Assembly: GCF_005844085.1 (NCBI RefSeq)
Contig: NZ_VCDI01000010.1
Coordinates: 1-64,000, forward strand
Reading direction: 5' to 3'
Origin: Lichenicoccus roseus
GTDB taxonomy: Bacteria; Pseudomonadota; Alphaproteobacteria; Acetobacterales; Acetobacteraceae
DNA: 64,000 bases
The stretch's first letter is position 1, and every line of letters begins with the position of its first letter. The notes below the pieces were generated by a model. It did no database searches, was not told where the DNA came from, and worked only from the letters and a program-made list of their open reading frames with translations. The translations under genes were made by a program, and so were the position numbers. This document shows, in pieces, positions 9,949 to 17,665 of the stretch.

Positions 9949-11223
9949 TCAGTCCGGCCTGGTCTGGCCGGTGCCGATCACCTCGGTGCGGAAGCTGGTG
10001 AGCTGTTCCAGCCCAACCGGCCCGCGCGCATGCAGCCGGCCGGTGGCGACCCCGATCTCGGCGCCGAAGCCGAACTCGCCGCCGTCGCAGAACTGCGTCG
10101 ATGCGTTCCACATCACCACGGCGCTGTCGGTACCGTCCAGGAACCGGCGCGCAACCGCCGCGTCCTCGGCGACGATCGCCTCGGTGTGGGAACTCGAGTG
10201 CCTGGCGATATGGGCGAGCGCTCCCTCCACGCCATCGACCACCGCGACCGATAGCACCGCATCCAGCCACTCGGTATCGAAGCTGTCCGCATCCGCCGGC
10301 GGCAGGTCTGGCACGATGACGCGCGCCGCCGCATCGGCCCGGAAGCCGCAACCGAGGGCACGCAGGCCGTCGATCAGGCCAGGCAACTGGGCGTCGGCGA
10401 TGCTGCGGTCGATCAGCAGCGTCTCGGTGGCGCCGCAGATGCCGGTGCGGCGCATCTTGGCGTTGGCCAGGATGGCGAGCGCCATGGCGGGATCGGCGGA
10501 GCCGTCGACATAGGTGTGGCAAAGGCCTTCGGCGTGCGACAGCACCGGCACCCGCGCCTCGCGCTGCACCCGCTCGACCAGCGATCTGCCACCGCGCGGA
10601 ATGATCAGGTCGATCAGCCCGGCGGCCGACAGCATGGCGGCGACGTGGCGGCGATCGGCGTCCGGCGCCATCTGCACCGCCGCCGCCGGCAGGCCCGCCG
10701 CGCGCAGCCCGTCCTGCATCGCATCCTGGATGGCGCGCGCGCTGTGCAGGCTCTCGGAGCCGCCACGCAGAAGAACCGCGTTGCCCGATTTCAGGCACAG
10801 GCCGGCGGCGTCGGCGCCGACATTCGGACGGCTCTCGTAGATCATGCCGATGACGCCGATCGGGGTGGCCACCCGCCGCAGGCGCAGGCCGTTGGGACGG
10901 TCCCATTCGGCCAGCACCCGTCCGACCGGGTCCGGCAGGTCGGCAACGGTCTCGAGGCCCGCGGCCATCGCCTCGATGCGCTGTGGCGTCAACGTCAGCC
11001 GGTCGCGGAATGCGCTTCCGGCGCTGGAGGCGTCGAGATCGCGGAGGTTGGCTGCAAGGATCGCCTCGGCGGACGCCCGCAGGCTGGCGGCGGCCGCCCG
11101 CAGCGCCGCATCACGCATCGTGCGGCCGGATTGCGCCAGCACACGGGCGGCCTGTCGCGCGCCACGCGCCAGCTCGTGCATCGGCTCCTGCTCGTCAGCC
11201 GCCTGTTGCAACGCTGCGCTCAT
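9949..11223 (-). CDS. proA: gamma-glutamyl phosphate reductase ProA
   Basis: ProA reduces gamma-glutamyl phosphate to glutamate-5-semialdehyde with NADPH, the second step of proline synthesis. The 424-residue protein has normal length. It shows [26 protein letters not shown] (cofactor binding), the catalytic cysteine in [15 protein letters not shown], and the C-terminal [18 protein letters not shown] signature. The usual partner proB is not adjacent; upstream are an ACP and an FkbH-like gene instead. proC is in the window at 27.9 kb. ProA opens the proA-nadD-rsfS-rlmH group. Confidence 0.95.
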
Positions 11224-11259: not shown

Positions 11260-11520
11260 TCAGCCTTGCAGCGCAAGGGTCTTGATCCTGACCAGTCCTG
11301 CGAGATCGCCTACATTGCGAAGCTTGTCCACCTCGCGCGAACGGAGGCGGATGCCGAACTGCTGCTCGGTGGCGAGAATGATGCTCACCATCCGGATCGA
11401 GTTCCACCCCGACACCGTCTCGGCGGAAGTCTCCGGGCGCAGCACCAGGCTGTCATCGCCGAACACCTCGTGGAACACCGCGGTCAGGCCGGCCTGGATG
11501 TCGGCGTCGGTCATGCTCAT
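11260..11520 (-). CDS. acyl carrier protein-like protein paired with FkbH
   Basis: The 86-residue product is a stand-alone carrier protein. The phosphopantetheine-attachment serine is most likely Ser41 in the motif W-N-S-I, a variant of the usual D-S-L/M. The following VSIILATEQQFGI helix matches carrier proteins. Its ATG overlaps the FkbH stop as ATGA, so the two are made together. In polyketide systems FkbH-type enzymes load a glyceryl unit from 1,3-bisphosphoglycerate onto such a carrier. There is no ketosynthase or other acyl-chain gene nearby, so the acceptor of the loaded group is unknown. Confidence 0.8.
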   Translation of the reverse strand: MSMTDADIQAGLTAVFHEVFGDDSLVLRPETSAETVSGWNSIRMVSIILATEQQFGIRLRSREVDKLRNVGDLAGLVRIKTLALQG

Positions 11521-13427
11521 GCTCCTTCGACGATTGCGATGGCGGCGTCCGGCACCGCAAAGTCGCGCAGATCCAGCATCGCGCGGTGGCCGCCATCCGC
11601 CGCCGGCGTGCCGACGGTAAAGCCGAGCCGGCCATACAGGGTCGAGACCATGGCATTGCGTCCGCTCGGGATGTAGTCGCCCGCCAGCACCTGCGCACCG
11701 GACGCCTTCGCCTGCGCGACGATCACGGCGAGCGTCGCCTGCTCGACATTCCGGCCGAGCACCCGGCACGACATCAGCCAGTTCTCGACCACGGCCACAC
11801 CGTCCCCCTGCAGCCGGCAGATCGCCACCGCGATGATGCCGCACTCGCCGTGCCGGTCGGCGAGCCGGAACTGCAGTCCGAATGCGTGCGGATCGTCGAT
11901 CAGCGCCTGGATCCCGGAAGTCGTCGTGCGCCGGGTGGTCAGGTTGAACTGGTTGGTCTTGTTGACGAGTTGCACGATCCGCTGCAGCCCGACCGGCTCG
12001 AAGCGGCGCCAGGTCAGCGTCATGCCGAGCGAGGCCAGGTAGGCCGGCACGTCGGCGGCGGCGCCCGCCTCGGCGATGCGCGCGCGATCGGCCGAATACT
12101 GCGCAACGCGCGCGCGATCCTCCGCGGTCACCGAGACGGTCTCGAAATACCCCGCATCGGCCAGCACCCCCGGCATCAGGGCGGGCTCGTCGTCCGGCAC
12201 CTCCGGCACTGCGACGTCGGGCAGCGCCGCCCGCACCAGGTCGCGCTCGAAGGCGCTGTCGTCGAGCAGCACCAGGCTGTCGACACCGATGTTCAACGTG
12301 GTCGCGATACGCTGCAGGTTGGTCGCCTTGTCGTCCCAGTTGGCGACGAAGGCGGCGATGTCCGAGCGCCGCAGCAGCATCTCGGGATGATGGTCGAAAA
12401 CCGCACGCGCGACCGTCTCGTCGTTCTTCGAGCAGACTGCCAGGATCACGCCGCGCTCGGCCAGCGCCTTGGCGTAGCACTGCACGGCGAGATGCGCTTC
12501 GCCGGCGGCCGAACCATGGCCGAGCTCGATCCCCTCGATGCCGTCATCGCCGGCCACGCCGCCCCACAGCGTGTTGTCGAGATCGAGCACCAGGCACTTG
12601 GCGGAACGTCCCTGCAGGGCGGCCAGCAGGCGTCCGACCAGATCGCCGTAGACCGGCGTCGCCACCGGGGAGATTTCCTGCCTGGTGCGATGCCACAGCG
12701 CCGGGTCGTGCCACTCGCCGATCCCGTCGCGCGCCGCCGCCTCGTCGATCGCCAGCACCTGCACGCCGTCCGCATCGGCCGCCTCGCGCAGCGCCGCATT
12801 CAGCCGCACGATCATGGCTGCCTTCGATCCCGCCATGCGCTGCTCGTTGTTGCCGGCCACGCCGGGCAGCACCGGCAGGATCGCCTGCTGGATCACCTGC
12901 GCGCCGAGATCCGCCGCCAGGCGCCAGCACGACCGCATGGTCGCGACGATCGCCTGCAGGGCCTGGCGCGCCGAGGCGGCATCCGCGCCGGCGGCGAGGC
13001 CGGCGGTCACGTGCCGTGCATCGAGCGCCAGCAGGACCGTGTCGGGCCCGAATCGATGCAGGGCCGAGTTTACGTCGCCCAGTTCCTGCAGATACTGGCC
13101 ATACTCGCCCTCATGGATGCTGACATGGATGTTGCGACGCAGTCCGGCGACACGGATCGATGCCGGCAGATGCGCGGTCGTCGAGGATCCGAGCAAGGCA
13201 AGCCGCACCTGACGGCTCGGAGAGGGTTGCGGCGGCGCCTGGAACGCGGCCTGCAGCACCACGTCGAGGCGGTCGGTGCGGAGGAAGTCGAGCCGCAGCC
13301 TGGCAAGCGCCACCAATGCCGTCCAGCATTCCGGTCCGGGGATGCCGGCCGCGGCGTCCTGCAGATGTTTCAGGCGCATGTTGAATTCGCCGGCTTGCGG
13401 AAGCCAGGCGAGGCTGGGCTTCGGCAT
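11517..13427 (-). CDS. FkbH-like HAD-IIIC family phosphatase/glyceryl transferase
   Basis: The 636-residue protein has three parts. An N-terminal half (to about residue 280) resembles the SGNH-like region of FkbH proteins. A HAD-IIIC domain carries the nucleophile motif LDLDNTLWGG near residue 290, followed by AVCSKND and LLDDSAFERD. A C-terminal GNAT-like domain starts near residue 470 (ADVPAYLASLGM through CGIIAVAICR). FkbH family enzymes dephosphorylate and transfer a glyceryl group to an acyl carrier protein. The ATG at 13427 follows a strong GGAGG site, better than the GTG at 13454. Only the small ACP gene is coupled to it. The product of this pair is unknown. Confidence 0.85.
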   Translation of the reverse strand: MPKPSLAWLPQAGEFNMRLKHLQDAAAGIPGPECWTALVALARLRLDFLRTDRLDVVLQAAFQAPPQPSPSRQVRLALLGSSTTAHLPASIRVAGLRRNIHVSIHEGEYGQYLQELGDVNSALHRFGPDTVLLALDARHVTAGLAAGADAASARQALQAIVATMRSCWRLAADLGAQVIQQAILPVLPGVAGNNEQRMAGSKAAMIVRLNAALREAADADGVQVLAIDEAAARDGIGEWHDPALWHRTRQEISPVATPVYGDLVGRLLAALQGRSAKCLVLDLDNTLWGGVAGDDGIEGIELGHGSAAGEAHLAVQCYAKALAERGVILAVCSKNDETVARAVFDHHPEMLLRRSDIAAFVANWDDKATNLQRIATTLNIGVDSLVLLDDSAFERDLVRAALPDVAVPEVPDDEPALMPGVLADAGYFETVSVTAEDRARVAQYSADRARIAEAGAAADVPAYLASLGMTLTWRRFEPVGLQRIVQLVNKTNQFNLTTRRTTTSGIQALIDDPHAFGLQFRLADRHGECGIIAVAICRLQGDGVAVVENWLMSCRVLGRNVEQATLAVIVAQAKASGAQVLAGDYIPSGRNAMVSTLYGRLGFTVGTPAADGGHRAMLDLRDFAVPDAAIAIVEGA

Positions 13428-14587: not shown

Positions 14588-17500
14588 CTAGGCGGTCCAG
14601 TCCAGCAATGGCGGATCGAACACCATGCGGTCTCGGCCACGATGTTTTGCCTCGTACAGCGCGGCATCCGCCCGGCGGATCATCGAGGTGACGTCGTCTC
14701 CCTCGCGCAGCCAGGTCATGCCGATGCTGCAGGTGAGCGAGATGGCGCCGTTCTCGATCGGGCAAGGCTCCTTGAACACCTCCTTGCGCAGGACCTGCAC
14801 GCGGCCGAAGGCGCCCACCCGCAGGCCGGGCAGCACCACCAGCAGTTCCTCGCCGCCGTAGCGGCCGGCGAAATCGGTCTCGCGTATGCCGACCGCCAGG
14901 CGGTGTCCGATCTCCTTGAGCACGGCATCGCCGGACAGGTGGCCGTAGCGGTCGTTGACCTGCTTAAAATGGTCCAGGTCGATCAGCGCGATGGCGAGCG
15001 GCGAGGCGGTGGTTGCCGCATGCGTCACCGCCTGCCGCAGCCGCTCCAGGCAGGCGACGCGATTGAGCAGCCCGGTGAGGCCGTCATAGGTCGCCTGGTT
15101 GAACAGGATCAGCCTCGCCTGCTCGATCTCGCGGGTGCGCTCGGCGACCACCGCCTCCAGGTGGCGCTGCCGGGCGAGCAGGTAGCTGACCCGCAGGCGC
15201 CACAGCACAGCCAGGGTCAGCAGGGCAAGCAGCATCGTCGACAGGTAGAACGGCCAGCTCCGCCACCATGGCGCGCGAACCCGGAAATGCAGGGCTACCG
15301 GTTCGGAACTCAGGCCATGCAGCGGATCGACGGCGGCGATCTCGAAGGTCAGCTCCCCAGGTGGCAGGTCCGGATAACGGGCCTCGTGCGTGCTGGTCTC
15401 GACCCAGCCGGCATCGACCCCTTCCAGCCGGTAGCGGAAGCGGAGCGAGCGCGAATAGCGGTAGTCCAGCGTCGAGAAGTTGATCACCAGCGGCGCGCGC
15501 GACCAGTTCAGCCGGATGGCCTGTGCCGTGTCCGACTGGTTTATGGCCACGGGCGGGCTGACCACGCGATTGCCGATGGTCGCCTGCGTGATCACCGGAT
15601 GCAGCACCATCGGCCGGAACAGGTCCCTGCTGTCGATGAGGTGCGACAGGCCGGCCGCGGTGCCGAACCATTGCGAGCCGTCGCGATCGGTCATCGTCGC
15701 CATCTCGGCGATGTCGTTGGAGGCCAGCCCGTCATCGGTGTCGATGTGGCGCCAGTGCACACCGTCGGTGACGTCGAGCCCGTGATCGGTGCCGATCCAG
15801 ATCCGTCCTGCGGCATCGCGGGCCAGCAGTTCGACATCAAGCCCGGCCACGTGCTGCCGCGGCAGTGTGTCGGTGCCGATGACGCTGTTGCCCGCGAGAT
15901 GCAGGCGGGTCACGCCGGTGAGGAAGCTGCCAAGCCAGAGCAACCCGTCGGGGCCGAAGGCCATGCAGCGGACCTGGTAGCCGCCGTCCGACTGCGTCGT
16001 CATGACGACGTGCCAGGATCCGTCCGCGTCGCGATGCTGCAGCGCCTGGTCGGTCAGGGTCCACAGCGTTCCGGCGCTGTCGAACACCAGCGAGAATACC
16101 CGTCCGACCGGATGGGCGGCCTGGGAGAAGACCGGCGGTCCCGGCACGTCGGGCTGCGGGATCGACAGCACGCCCTCCGCGGTGCCGATCCAGAGCATGC
16201 CGTCCGGGCCCATCGCCATGGTGCGGATCTGCGGCAGCCTGGCATAGACCTCGCTCCGGCCGGTGGCGGTATCCCGGCGCAGCAGGGTGCCGGAGATGAA
16301 GCCCACGAACAGGTTGCCGCGTGCCGACCGGGCGAGCGCATAGGCACGGCCGGGGTAGCGCTGTTCCGGGACCGGGCCGGTGGGTGGGACGGCGGCGGCC
16401 GTGGCCGGAGCGGAGGTGGCAGGAACGCCTGCGACGGCGTCCGGGCTCGCTGCGGCGATCGCCTGCTGCTGGTTCCTTGCTTTCTCGACCAGGGTGCGCT
16501 CGTTCAGCGCGTCCACCGACAGGTCGTTGGCGACCCACAGCGTGCCGGCACCGTCACGCGCCATGTTCCAGACCAGGTCGTCCTCGAGGCCCTGCTCGCG
16601 GGTCCAGTTCTCGAACATGCCGAAGCCGAGCGCCTGCGCCAGGCCGCGGCCGTGACTGCCCGCCCACAGCGATCCCTCGCGGTCGATGAGCATGCTGATC
16701 GGGGCGCCGTACAGCATGCCCTCGTGGTGGCCATAGATCAGCCAGCGTCCATGCTCGTGCACCAGCAGGCCGGTGGCGCTCTGGGTGATCACGCGCTGCG
16801 CGGAGTCCTGCACGAGTTGCAACCTGCCGGCATCGGTCGTGAATCGGCCTGCCCCGCCGGGGACATCGGTGATCTCGAAGCGGCTGGAGCCCGGGCGCAG
16901 GCTGGCGATACGCAACGGGCTGCGCAGCCACAGGGTCCCCTGGCGGTCGCGCAGCAGACCGGTCCACTGGTCCGGCGGCAGGCCAAGCTGGTCGCCGGTC
17001 AGCGTCAGGGCGCCGTTCTGCAGCCGGCAGACGGTCACGCCGCATTGCAGCCAGACCGCGCCCTGGTCGACATAGACCGACTTGAACCCGGCCGCGATGG
17101 CGGCCTGCAGCACCGACTGGCTGGCTCCTGCCGGCTGGGTGGCCAGAAACGGCTGCACCGTGACGGTGTCGTCCGCATTGCCCCTGGCCCGCAGCAGCTT
17201 GCCGTTGCGGACCAGCAGCACGTCGTCGCCCAGCACCGCCAGATGGTGGTAGATGTCGTCGCTGGTCGAGAGGTCCAGCCCCGCCGACACGAACCTGCCG
17301 CCGTGCGACATGTAGAGCCGGTCCGCGAACAGCACCCAGATGCGGCCATCCGGCATCGCCTGGATGTCGGTGACGGTGCCGACATCCGGCAGTCCGACCT
17401 CGTGGCCAAGCTGGGTGAAGCGGCTGCCATCGTACTGGAACAGTCCGTTCTCGGTGCCGGCATAGATGAAGCCGGCCTGATCCTGGGCAAGGGCATTGAT

Positions 17501-17665
17501 GCCGAGGTTCGACAGTCCGCTGTCCTCGTCGTACAGCCGGAAGCCGAGATGCTGGGCGGCCGCGGATTGCGACGAGAACAGGGCCATCAGCAACGCGAAA
17601 CAGATCGCGACCCACCGTGCGCGGGTGGTGGTTCCAACTCGTTCCCGGTCGCTTACAAGACCCAT
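14588..17665 (-). CDS. periplasmic beta-propeller (Reg_prop/Y_Y_Y) sensor diguanylate cyclase
   Basis: The 1025-residue protein begins with a signal peptide (WVAICFALLMALFSSQSAAAQ). A long periplasmic part has Reg_prop-type propeller repeats (e.g. GLSNLGINALAQDQAG, DLVWNMARDGAGTLWVAND, GRIWIGTDHGL), interrupted by an Ala/Pro-rich linker near residue 400. A Y_Y_Y domain (about 725-790) and a membrane helix (about 800-820) follow, then a coiled linker and a GGDEF domain. The active-site loop reads GGEEL where GGEEF is standard. A product-inhibition I-site RETD sits five residues before it. It should make cyclic di-GMP in response to an unknown periplasmic ligand. No histidine kinase part is present. 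Confidence 0.88.
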   Translation of the reverse strand: MGLVSDRERVGTTTRARWVAICFALLMALFSSQSAAAQHLGFRLYDEDSGLSNLGINALAQDQAGFIYAGTENGLFQYDGSRFTQLGHEVGLPDVGTVTDIQAMPDGRIWVLFADRLYMSHGGRFVSAGLDLSTSDDIYHHLAVLGDDVLLVRNGKLLRARGNADDTVTVQPFLATQPAGASQSVLQAAIAAGFKSVYVDQGAVWLQCGVTVCRLQNGALTLTGDQLGLPPDQWTGLLRDRQGTLWLRSPLRIASLRPGSSRFEITDVPGGAGRFTTDAGRLQLVQDSAQRVITQSATGLLVHEHGRWLIYGHHEGMLYGAPISMLIDREGSLWAGSHGRGLAQALGFGMFENWTREQGLEDDLVWNMARDGAGTLWVANDLSVDALNERTLVEKARNQQQAIAAASPDAVAGVPATSAPATAAAVPPTGPVPEQRYPGRAYALARSARGNLFVGFISGTLLRRDTATGRSEVYARLPQIRTMAMGPDGMLWIGTAEGVLSIPQPDVPGPPVFSQAAHPVGRVFSLVFDSAGTLWTLTDQALQHRDADGSWHVVMTTQSDGGYQVRCMAFGPDGLLWLGSFLTGVTRLHLAGNSVIGTDTLPRQHVAGLDVELLARDAAGRIWIGTDHGLDVTDGVHWRHIDTDDGLASNDIAEMATMTDRDGSQWFGTAAGLSHLIDSRDLFRPMVLHPVITQATIGNRVVSPPVAINQSDTAQAIRLNWSRAPLVINFSTLDYRYSRSLRFRYRLEGVDAGWVETSTHEARYPDLPPGELTFEIAAVDPLHGLSSEPVALHFRVRAPWWRSWPFYLSTMLLALLTLAVLWRLRVSYLLARQRHLEAVVAERTREIEQARLILFNQATYDGLTGLLNRVACLERLRQAVTHAATTASPLAIALIDLDHFKQVNDRYGHLSGDAVLKEIGHRLAVGIRETDFAGRYGGEELLVVLPGLRVGAFGRVQVLRKEVFKEPCPIENGAISLTCSIGMTWLREGDDVTSMIRRADAALYEAKHRGRDRMVFDPPLLDWTA

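Follow-up and report, generated by a model that had tools for sequence, protein, structure and literature searches.

The FkbH-carrier gene pair and its position

The window analysed here is a stretch of 64,000 nt of Lichenicoccus roseus DNA. On its minus strand, the gene for an FkbH-type protein of 636 aa (11517..13427) and the gene for a stand-alone carrier protein of 86 aa (11260..11520, also on the minus strand) overlap by 4 bases (11517-11520). The gene proA (9949..11223, minus strand; PRK00197, 539.6 bits) lies 36 bases downstream of the pair and is followed on this strand by nadD, rsfS and rlmH; the other neighbour encodes a K+ channel protein. The initial annotation had given coordinates, strand, overlap and gap exactly, and both the order of the four downstream genes and the identities of the two proteins hold. 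A scan for promoters and terminators gave no match. Elsewhere in the window, positions 14588-17665 encode a 1025-aa sensor diguanylate cyclase with Reg_prop, Y_Y_Y and GGDEF domains.

The FkbH-type protein matches NCBIfam TIGR01686 with an E value of 1.4e-77 and 261 bits, above the curated cut-off of 146.65, and Pfam FkbH_N with an E value of 4e-8 and 33.8 bits. According to an AlphaFold model (19 relatives as input, pLDDT 86.9), it has a three-domain SGNH-HAD-GNAT fold. The N-terminal SGNH-like domain (aa 72-274; 12606..13214, minus strand) is matched by SGNH hydrolase structures with Z about 15, the HAD-IIIC domain (aa 273-432 in the fold, aa 277-432 as delimited at 12132..12599, minus strand) by MDP-1 with Z 15.8, and the C-terminal GNAT domain (aa 468-622; 11562..12026, minus strand) by GNAT acetyltransferase structures with Z of about 14-15. 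The best match in the PDB is the uncharacterised protein BF1531 of Bacteroides fragilis (3slr), the SGNH-HAD part of which superposes with our model with Z 39.7 at 33% identity; the fragment solved does not include a GNAT domain.

An alignment of 88 FkbH sequences, all of them uncharacterised, was used for residue conservation. The HAD set of DxD, Ser, Lys and DD (D282, D284, S333, K367, D389 and D390) is intact in the window protein, and these positions are 99-100% conserved. Cys554 in the M-S-C-R motif (11766..11768, minus strand) is invariant (88/88), and judging from this pattern we consider it the likely glyceryl-thioester cysteine. The substrate of the enzyme cannot be read from its sequence.

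The carrier matches Pfam PP-binding above the cut-off (E value 7.1e-6, 26.6 bits). Its motif reads G-W-N40-S41-I (N40-S41 at 11398..11403, minus strand), and the phosphopantetheine serine of the (D)SL-type motif is therefore present as S41, with its codon at 11398-11400. By sequence, the closest solved carrier is 2lml (E value 2.3e-14), which we take to be GmACP3 of Geobacter metallireducens, presumably encoded among LPS genes. The residue preceding the serine is unusual. Among 63 other FkbH-linked carriers it is mostly Asp, in five cases Thr, and in a few second carriers another residue, while Asn was found at this position in none of the 63 and thus in the window carrier only. In the E. coli ACP, the same Asp to Asn change (D35N) abolishes binding of IscS (PMC13343975), which implies that the position before the serine matters for at least one partner; on the other hand, the presence of Thr in relatives means that Asp is not essential there. 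Asn could weaken phosphopantetheinylation of the carrier.

The initial annotation pointed out the location of the pair beside proA, at a position that in many alphaproteobacteria is occupied by obg and proB. A functional meaning of this location is not supported by the genome comparison. Both proB and obg are intact and lie together on contig C12, after two 50S protein genes, which rules out that the pair has replaced either of them. In 29 relatives from the same family with a fetched proA locus, an FkbH-carrier pair was never found upstream of proA (0/29), proB was directly before proA within the examined flank in 13, and no FkbH gene was near proA among the gene-called FkbH loci of relatives. 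The relatives searched all belong to other genera. A conserved link to proA is thus ruled out, and the placement is a quirk of this genome that gives no functional hint; we claim no functional connection with proA. A recent foreign origin of the pair also found no sign in base composition, GC3 being normal (0.87 for FkbH, 0.85 for the carrier and 0.85 as the window mean).

Comparison with polyketide pathways

FkbH is known from textbooks as a feeder of antibiotic pathways. Glyceryl loading is an established activity of OzmB/FkbH enzymes, OzmB being a further example of an FkbH-like glyceryl transferase/phosphatase. FkbH-like proteins with stand-alone ACPs are represented by Mad7/Mad8 and Mad14/Mad12 (PMC7489565), and BafAIV is an FkbH/ACP-type component in the group of tetronate and methoxymalonyl-ACP pathways (PMC3679948). 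By family and gene context, and not by direct sequence comparison, the window pair shares with these pathways the FkbH domain family and a separate, adjoining carrier. It differs from them in that neither of the hallmarks of a glycerate-utilising polyketide pathway, adjacent dehydrogenases with an O-methyltransferase or a FabH-like enzyme, adjoins it, and in that its relatives are found in glycan loci.

The earlier statement that there is no polyketide synthase is correct inside the window. However, a hybrid NRPS-PKS is encoded just outside it, at C2:73190-93135, on the same contig and strand and about 61 kb from the pair. Its domains are arranged as A-T / KS-AT-T-aminotransferase-C-A-T / C-A-T-TE, with its own carriers and AT, and the cluster also encodes a PPTase, two cupin-like genes and a flippase-like gene. 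The shared contig and strand, and the possibility that the PPTase of the cluster modifies the unusual carrier, raise the question of whether glyceryl-ACP from the pair feeds this assembly line. We regard this as very unlikely. The PKS module comes with an AT and a carrier, the NRPS modules are likewise equipped with carriers, some 60 kb filled with other genes lie in between, and the FkbH relatives in the same branch adjoin glycan genes. Moreover, no enzyme using glyceryl-ACP was recognised among the translated genes of C2:73-93 kb, none of which resembles a methoxymalonate dehydrogenase or methyltransferase or a tetronate FabH. A ketosynthase that clearly uses the carrier would have argued against the use outside polyketides proposed in the initial annotation; the one found here is self-contained, and nothing links it to the pair.

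Glycan loci, CEFG proteins and a second pair

A phylogenetic tree of FkbH proteins places the window protein together with one from Acetobacteraceae (support 93/95) within a 24-row set (support 100/99). As the initial annotation had proposed, we surveyed the neighbourhoods of such pairs and found that relatives adjoin envelope and exopolysaccharide genes. Among the branch relatives, GT2/GT9 proteins are encoded at L139 and L140, an exosortase/polysaccharide cluster at L142 and a WsaF-like glycosyltransferase at L025. At L210, genes for a WsaF-like glycosyltransferase, a TPR-CEFG protein, FkbH, ACP and a MaoC-SDR fusion follow each other on one strand. Most loci of the 24-row set lack an MBOAT gene, and beside the window pair there is no glycan, MBOAT or CEFG gene.

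The CEFG proteins are characterised by a motif like F-E-S-L-G-D-N-C-E-F-G or FESIGDNCEFG with an invariant Cys (alignment A1), which occurs alone or after TPR repeats. A CEFG gene lies at most five genes from FkbH in nine independent loci and in L210, giving ten loci with CEFG near an FkbH-ACP pair (L003, L005, L014, L015, L021, L025, L033, L035, L042 and L210). By a rough count among the genomes searched, CEFG is more common in genomes with FkbH (8/12) than in genomes of the same family without it (7/24). The genome studied here contains three copies (C21:344574, C6:18202 and C1:756392). The gene on C6 overlaps a stand-alone ACP gene by 4 bases and is located beside GT61 and AMP-ligase genes, and the copy on C1 is near UDP-sugar genes, named by inspection. 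The family matched no named Pfam family, and profile comparison gave no relationship to two neighbouring proteins, which from their motifs we take to be WcbI-like and DUF1796-like. A structure search returned only 2g6t, with Z 7.2, which may reflect a common arrangement. Among the 88 fetched FkbH loci, none has both MBOAT and CEFG nearby; at these numbers, this may be due to chance or ancestry. As a side observation, the FkbH proteins of L003 and L004 are nearly identical although the MAGs are labelled as a betaproteobacterium (Nitrosovibrio) and an alphaproteobacterium (Asaia), respectively, and the Nitrosovibrio contig is probably misbinned.

MaoC-SDR fusion proteins are encoded beside FkbH-ACP in L033, L210, L016 and L032, which points to further processing of the C3 unit, by dehydration and reduction, in some members. 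Dehydration would presumably be chemically reasonable, because glyceryl-ACP is itself a 3-hydroxyacyl thioester. Accordingly, the unit carried by the window pair could be other than glyceryl, or could be changed by MaoC dehydration and SDR reduction to pyruvyl- and then lactyl-ACP for glycan acylation. For L. roseus this seems unlikely: a MaoC-SDR partner is absent from the genome, which gave only partial SDR matches, and no such gene was seen in the inspected neighbourhoods of other branch members such as L005, L014 and L139.

Adjacency of FkbH and ACP genes recurs across phyla, and the genome itself harbours a second pair (C5:14334-19092, corresponding to L086:8335-13093), in which the genes for FkbH and ACP are followed by those for a 521-aa MBOAT and a 346-aa SGNH protein. 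The FkbH encoded there is 54% identical to that of the window. The MBOAT scores above the Pfam cut-off and matches the DltB model TIGR04091 with an E value of 4.7e-48, yet below the cut-off of that model. It has kept the W-H-G histidine and ends with FLYFQF, corresponding to FxYxxF, the acyl-shuttle motif of MBOAT/SGNH systems (PMC12148441). The SGNH protein has a GDS motif and a hydrophobic N-terminal stretch. In the fetched loci, a sample skewed by related species, MBOAT is encoded at most three genes from FkbH in 20 of 88 cases, and most of the whole MBOATs fetched carry FxYxxF at the C-terminus. Thus, a Dlt-like combination of FkbH, ACP and MBOAT genes, in many cases together with an SGNH-like gene, is found repeatedly.

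By analogy, the C5 cassette looks like a Dlt system in which FkbH substitutes for DltA. In teichoic-acid D-alanylation by DltA, DltC, DltB/DltX and DltD (PMC12148441), as in the C5 set and its relatives, there are a carrier as donor, an MBOAT working with FxYxxF and an SGNH partner. The differences are that the loading enzyme is FkbH here and the adenylation enzyme DltA there, and that in the FkbH sets the MBOAT carries the shuttle motif as a fused part of the same protein, as PatA does. MBOAT/SGNH systems other than Dlt have no carrier protein according to PMC12148441, in which Dlt is the only carrier-dependent example named. The window pair has in common with Dlt that a carrier and a predicted loading enzyme are encoded together, but the MBOAT with FxYxxF and the SGNH gene, which are present at C5, do not adjoin it. 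For this reason we describe it as Dlt-like in its presumed working and do not file it as a Dlt-type locus. A lone MBOAT ending with FIYFQF is encoded at C22:31364-32740 (L131), with no SGNH protein recognised beside it, and is a candidate partner acting in trans.

The existence of a complete FkbH-ACP-MBOAT-SGNH set elsewhere in the genome could also mean that the window pair is a displaced, redundant copy heading for loss, separated from its partner genes and with the carrier motif altered to W-N-S. In line with this, its orphan position is unique to this genome (0/29 relatives), as is Asn before the serine among the carriers compared. Nevertheless, we consider decay rather doubtful, since both frames are open, the catalytic and invariant residues of FkbH as well as the 4-base overlap are kept, GC3 matches that of the neighbouring genes, and the position preceding the serine also varies to Thr in relatives.

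Proposed role in envelope acylation

Since related pairs adjoin genes for sugar polymers and membrane acyl transfer, the C3 unit made by the window pair is probably used to modify the cell surface and not as the starter of an antibiotic; this view relies on gene neighbourhoods. It agrees with the initial annotation, which had proposed a carrier-bound C3 unit for another use: relatives are located beside envelope and exopolysaccharide genes and not beside polyketide synthases, and the second pair in the genome is followed by genes for a DltB-like MBOAT and an SGNH protein. At roughly even odds (about 0.5), we propose that the pair makes glyceryl-S-ACP as a donor for acylation of an envelope glycan by a transferase acting in trans; genes, catalytic residues, fold and gene contexts are observed, while glyceryl loading, acceptor and transferase are inferred. 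FkbH would take glyceryl from 1,3-bisphosphoglycerate, bind it to a cysteine (probably C554), remove the phosphate and hand over a C3 hydroxyacyl unit, most likely D-glyceryl, to the phosphopantetheine of the carrier encoded by the overlapping gene. Once loaded, the carrier would act in the cytoplasm as acyl donor in the modification of an envelope glycan or an exopolysaccharide, with FkbH and ACP in place of DltA and DltC in the style of the Dlt pathway. For the C5 copy, the receiving MBOAT and SGNH proteins would be those of the adjoining genes. Candidates for acting in trans with the window copy would be the MBOAT of C5 or C22, or any of the three CEFG proteins.

It is tempting to speculate, although we hold this wider idea only tentatively and as less probable than the role of the pair itself, that FkbH-ACP represents a widespread second class of carrier-dependent envelope acylation in Gram-negative bacteria, with FkbH instead of DltA. 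Glycerate or a derived C3 unit would be exported via MBOAT-SGNH or, in the branch of the window protein, by CEFG taking the acyl group from the carrier to the glycan. In a literature search covering only a minority of subscription papers, no paper joining FkbH, LPS and glycosyltransferase was found, which is weak evidence, and the sole paper joining FkbH and MBOAT was a review on aeruginosin peptides.

The associations of FkbH with MBOAT and with CEFG are more interesting than the window pair itself, and CEFG is a concrete, unannotated protein family for testing. If it is true that such pairs load envelope glycans, a large proportion of the genes annotated as 'FkbH' have been misread, and a carrier protein would be supplying glycerate as an acyl group of the cell surface.
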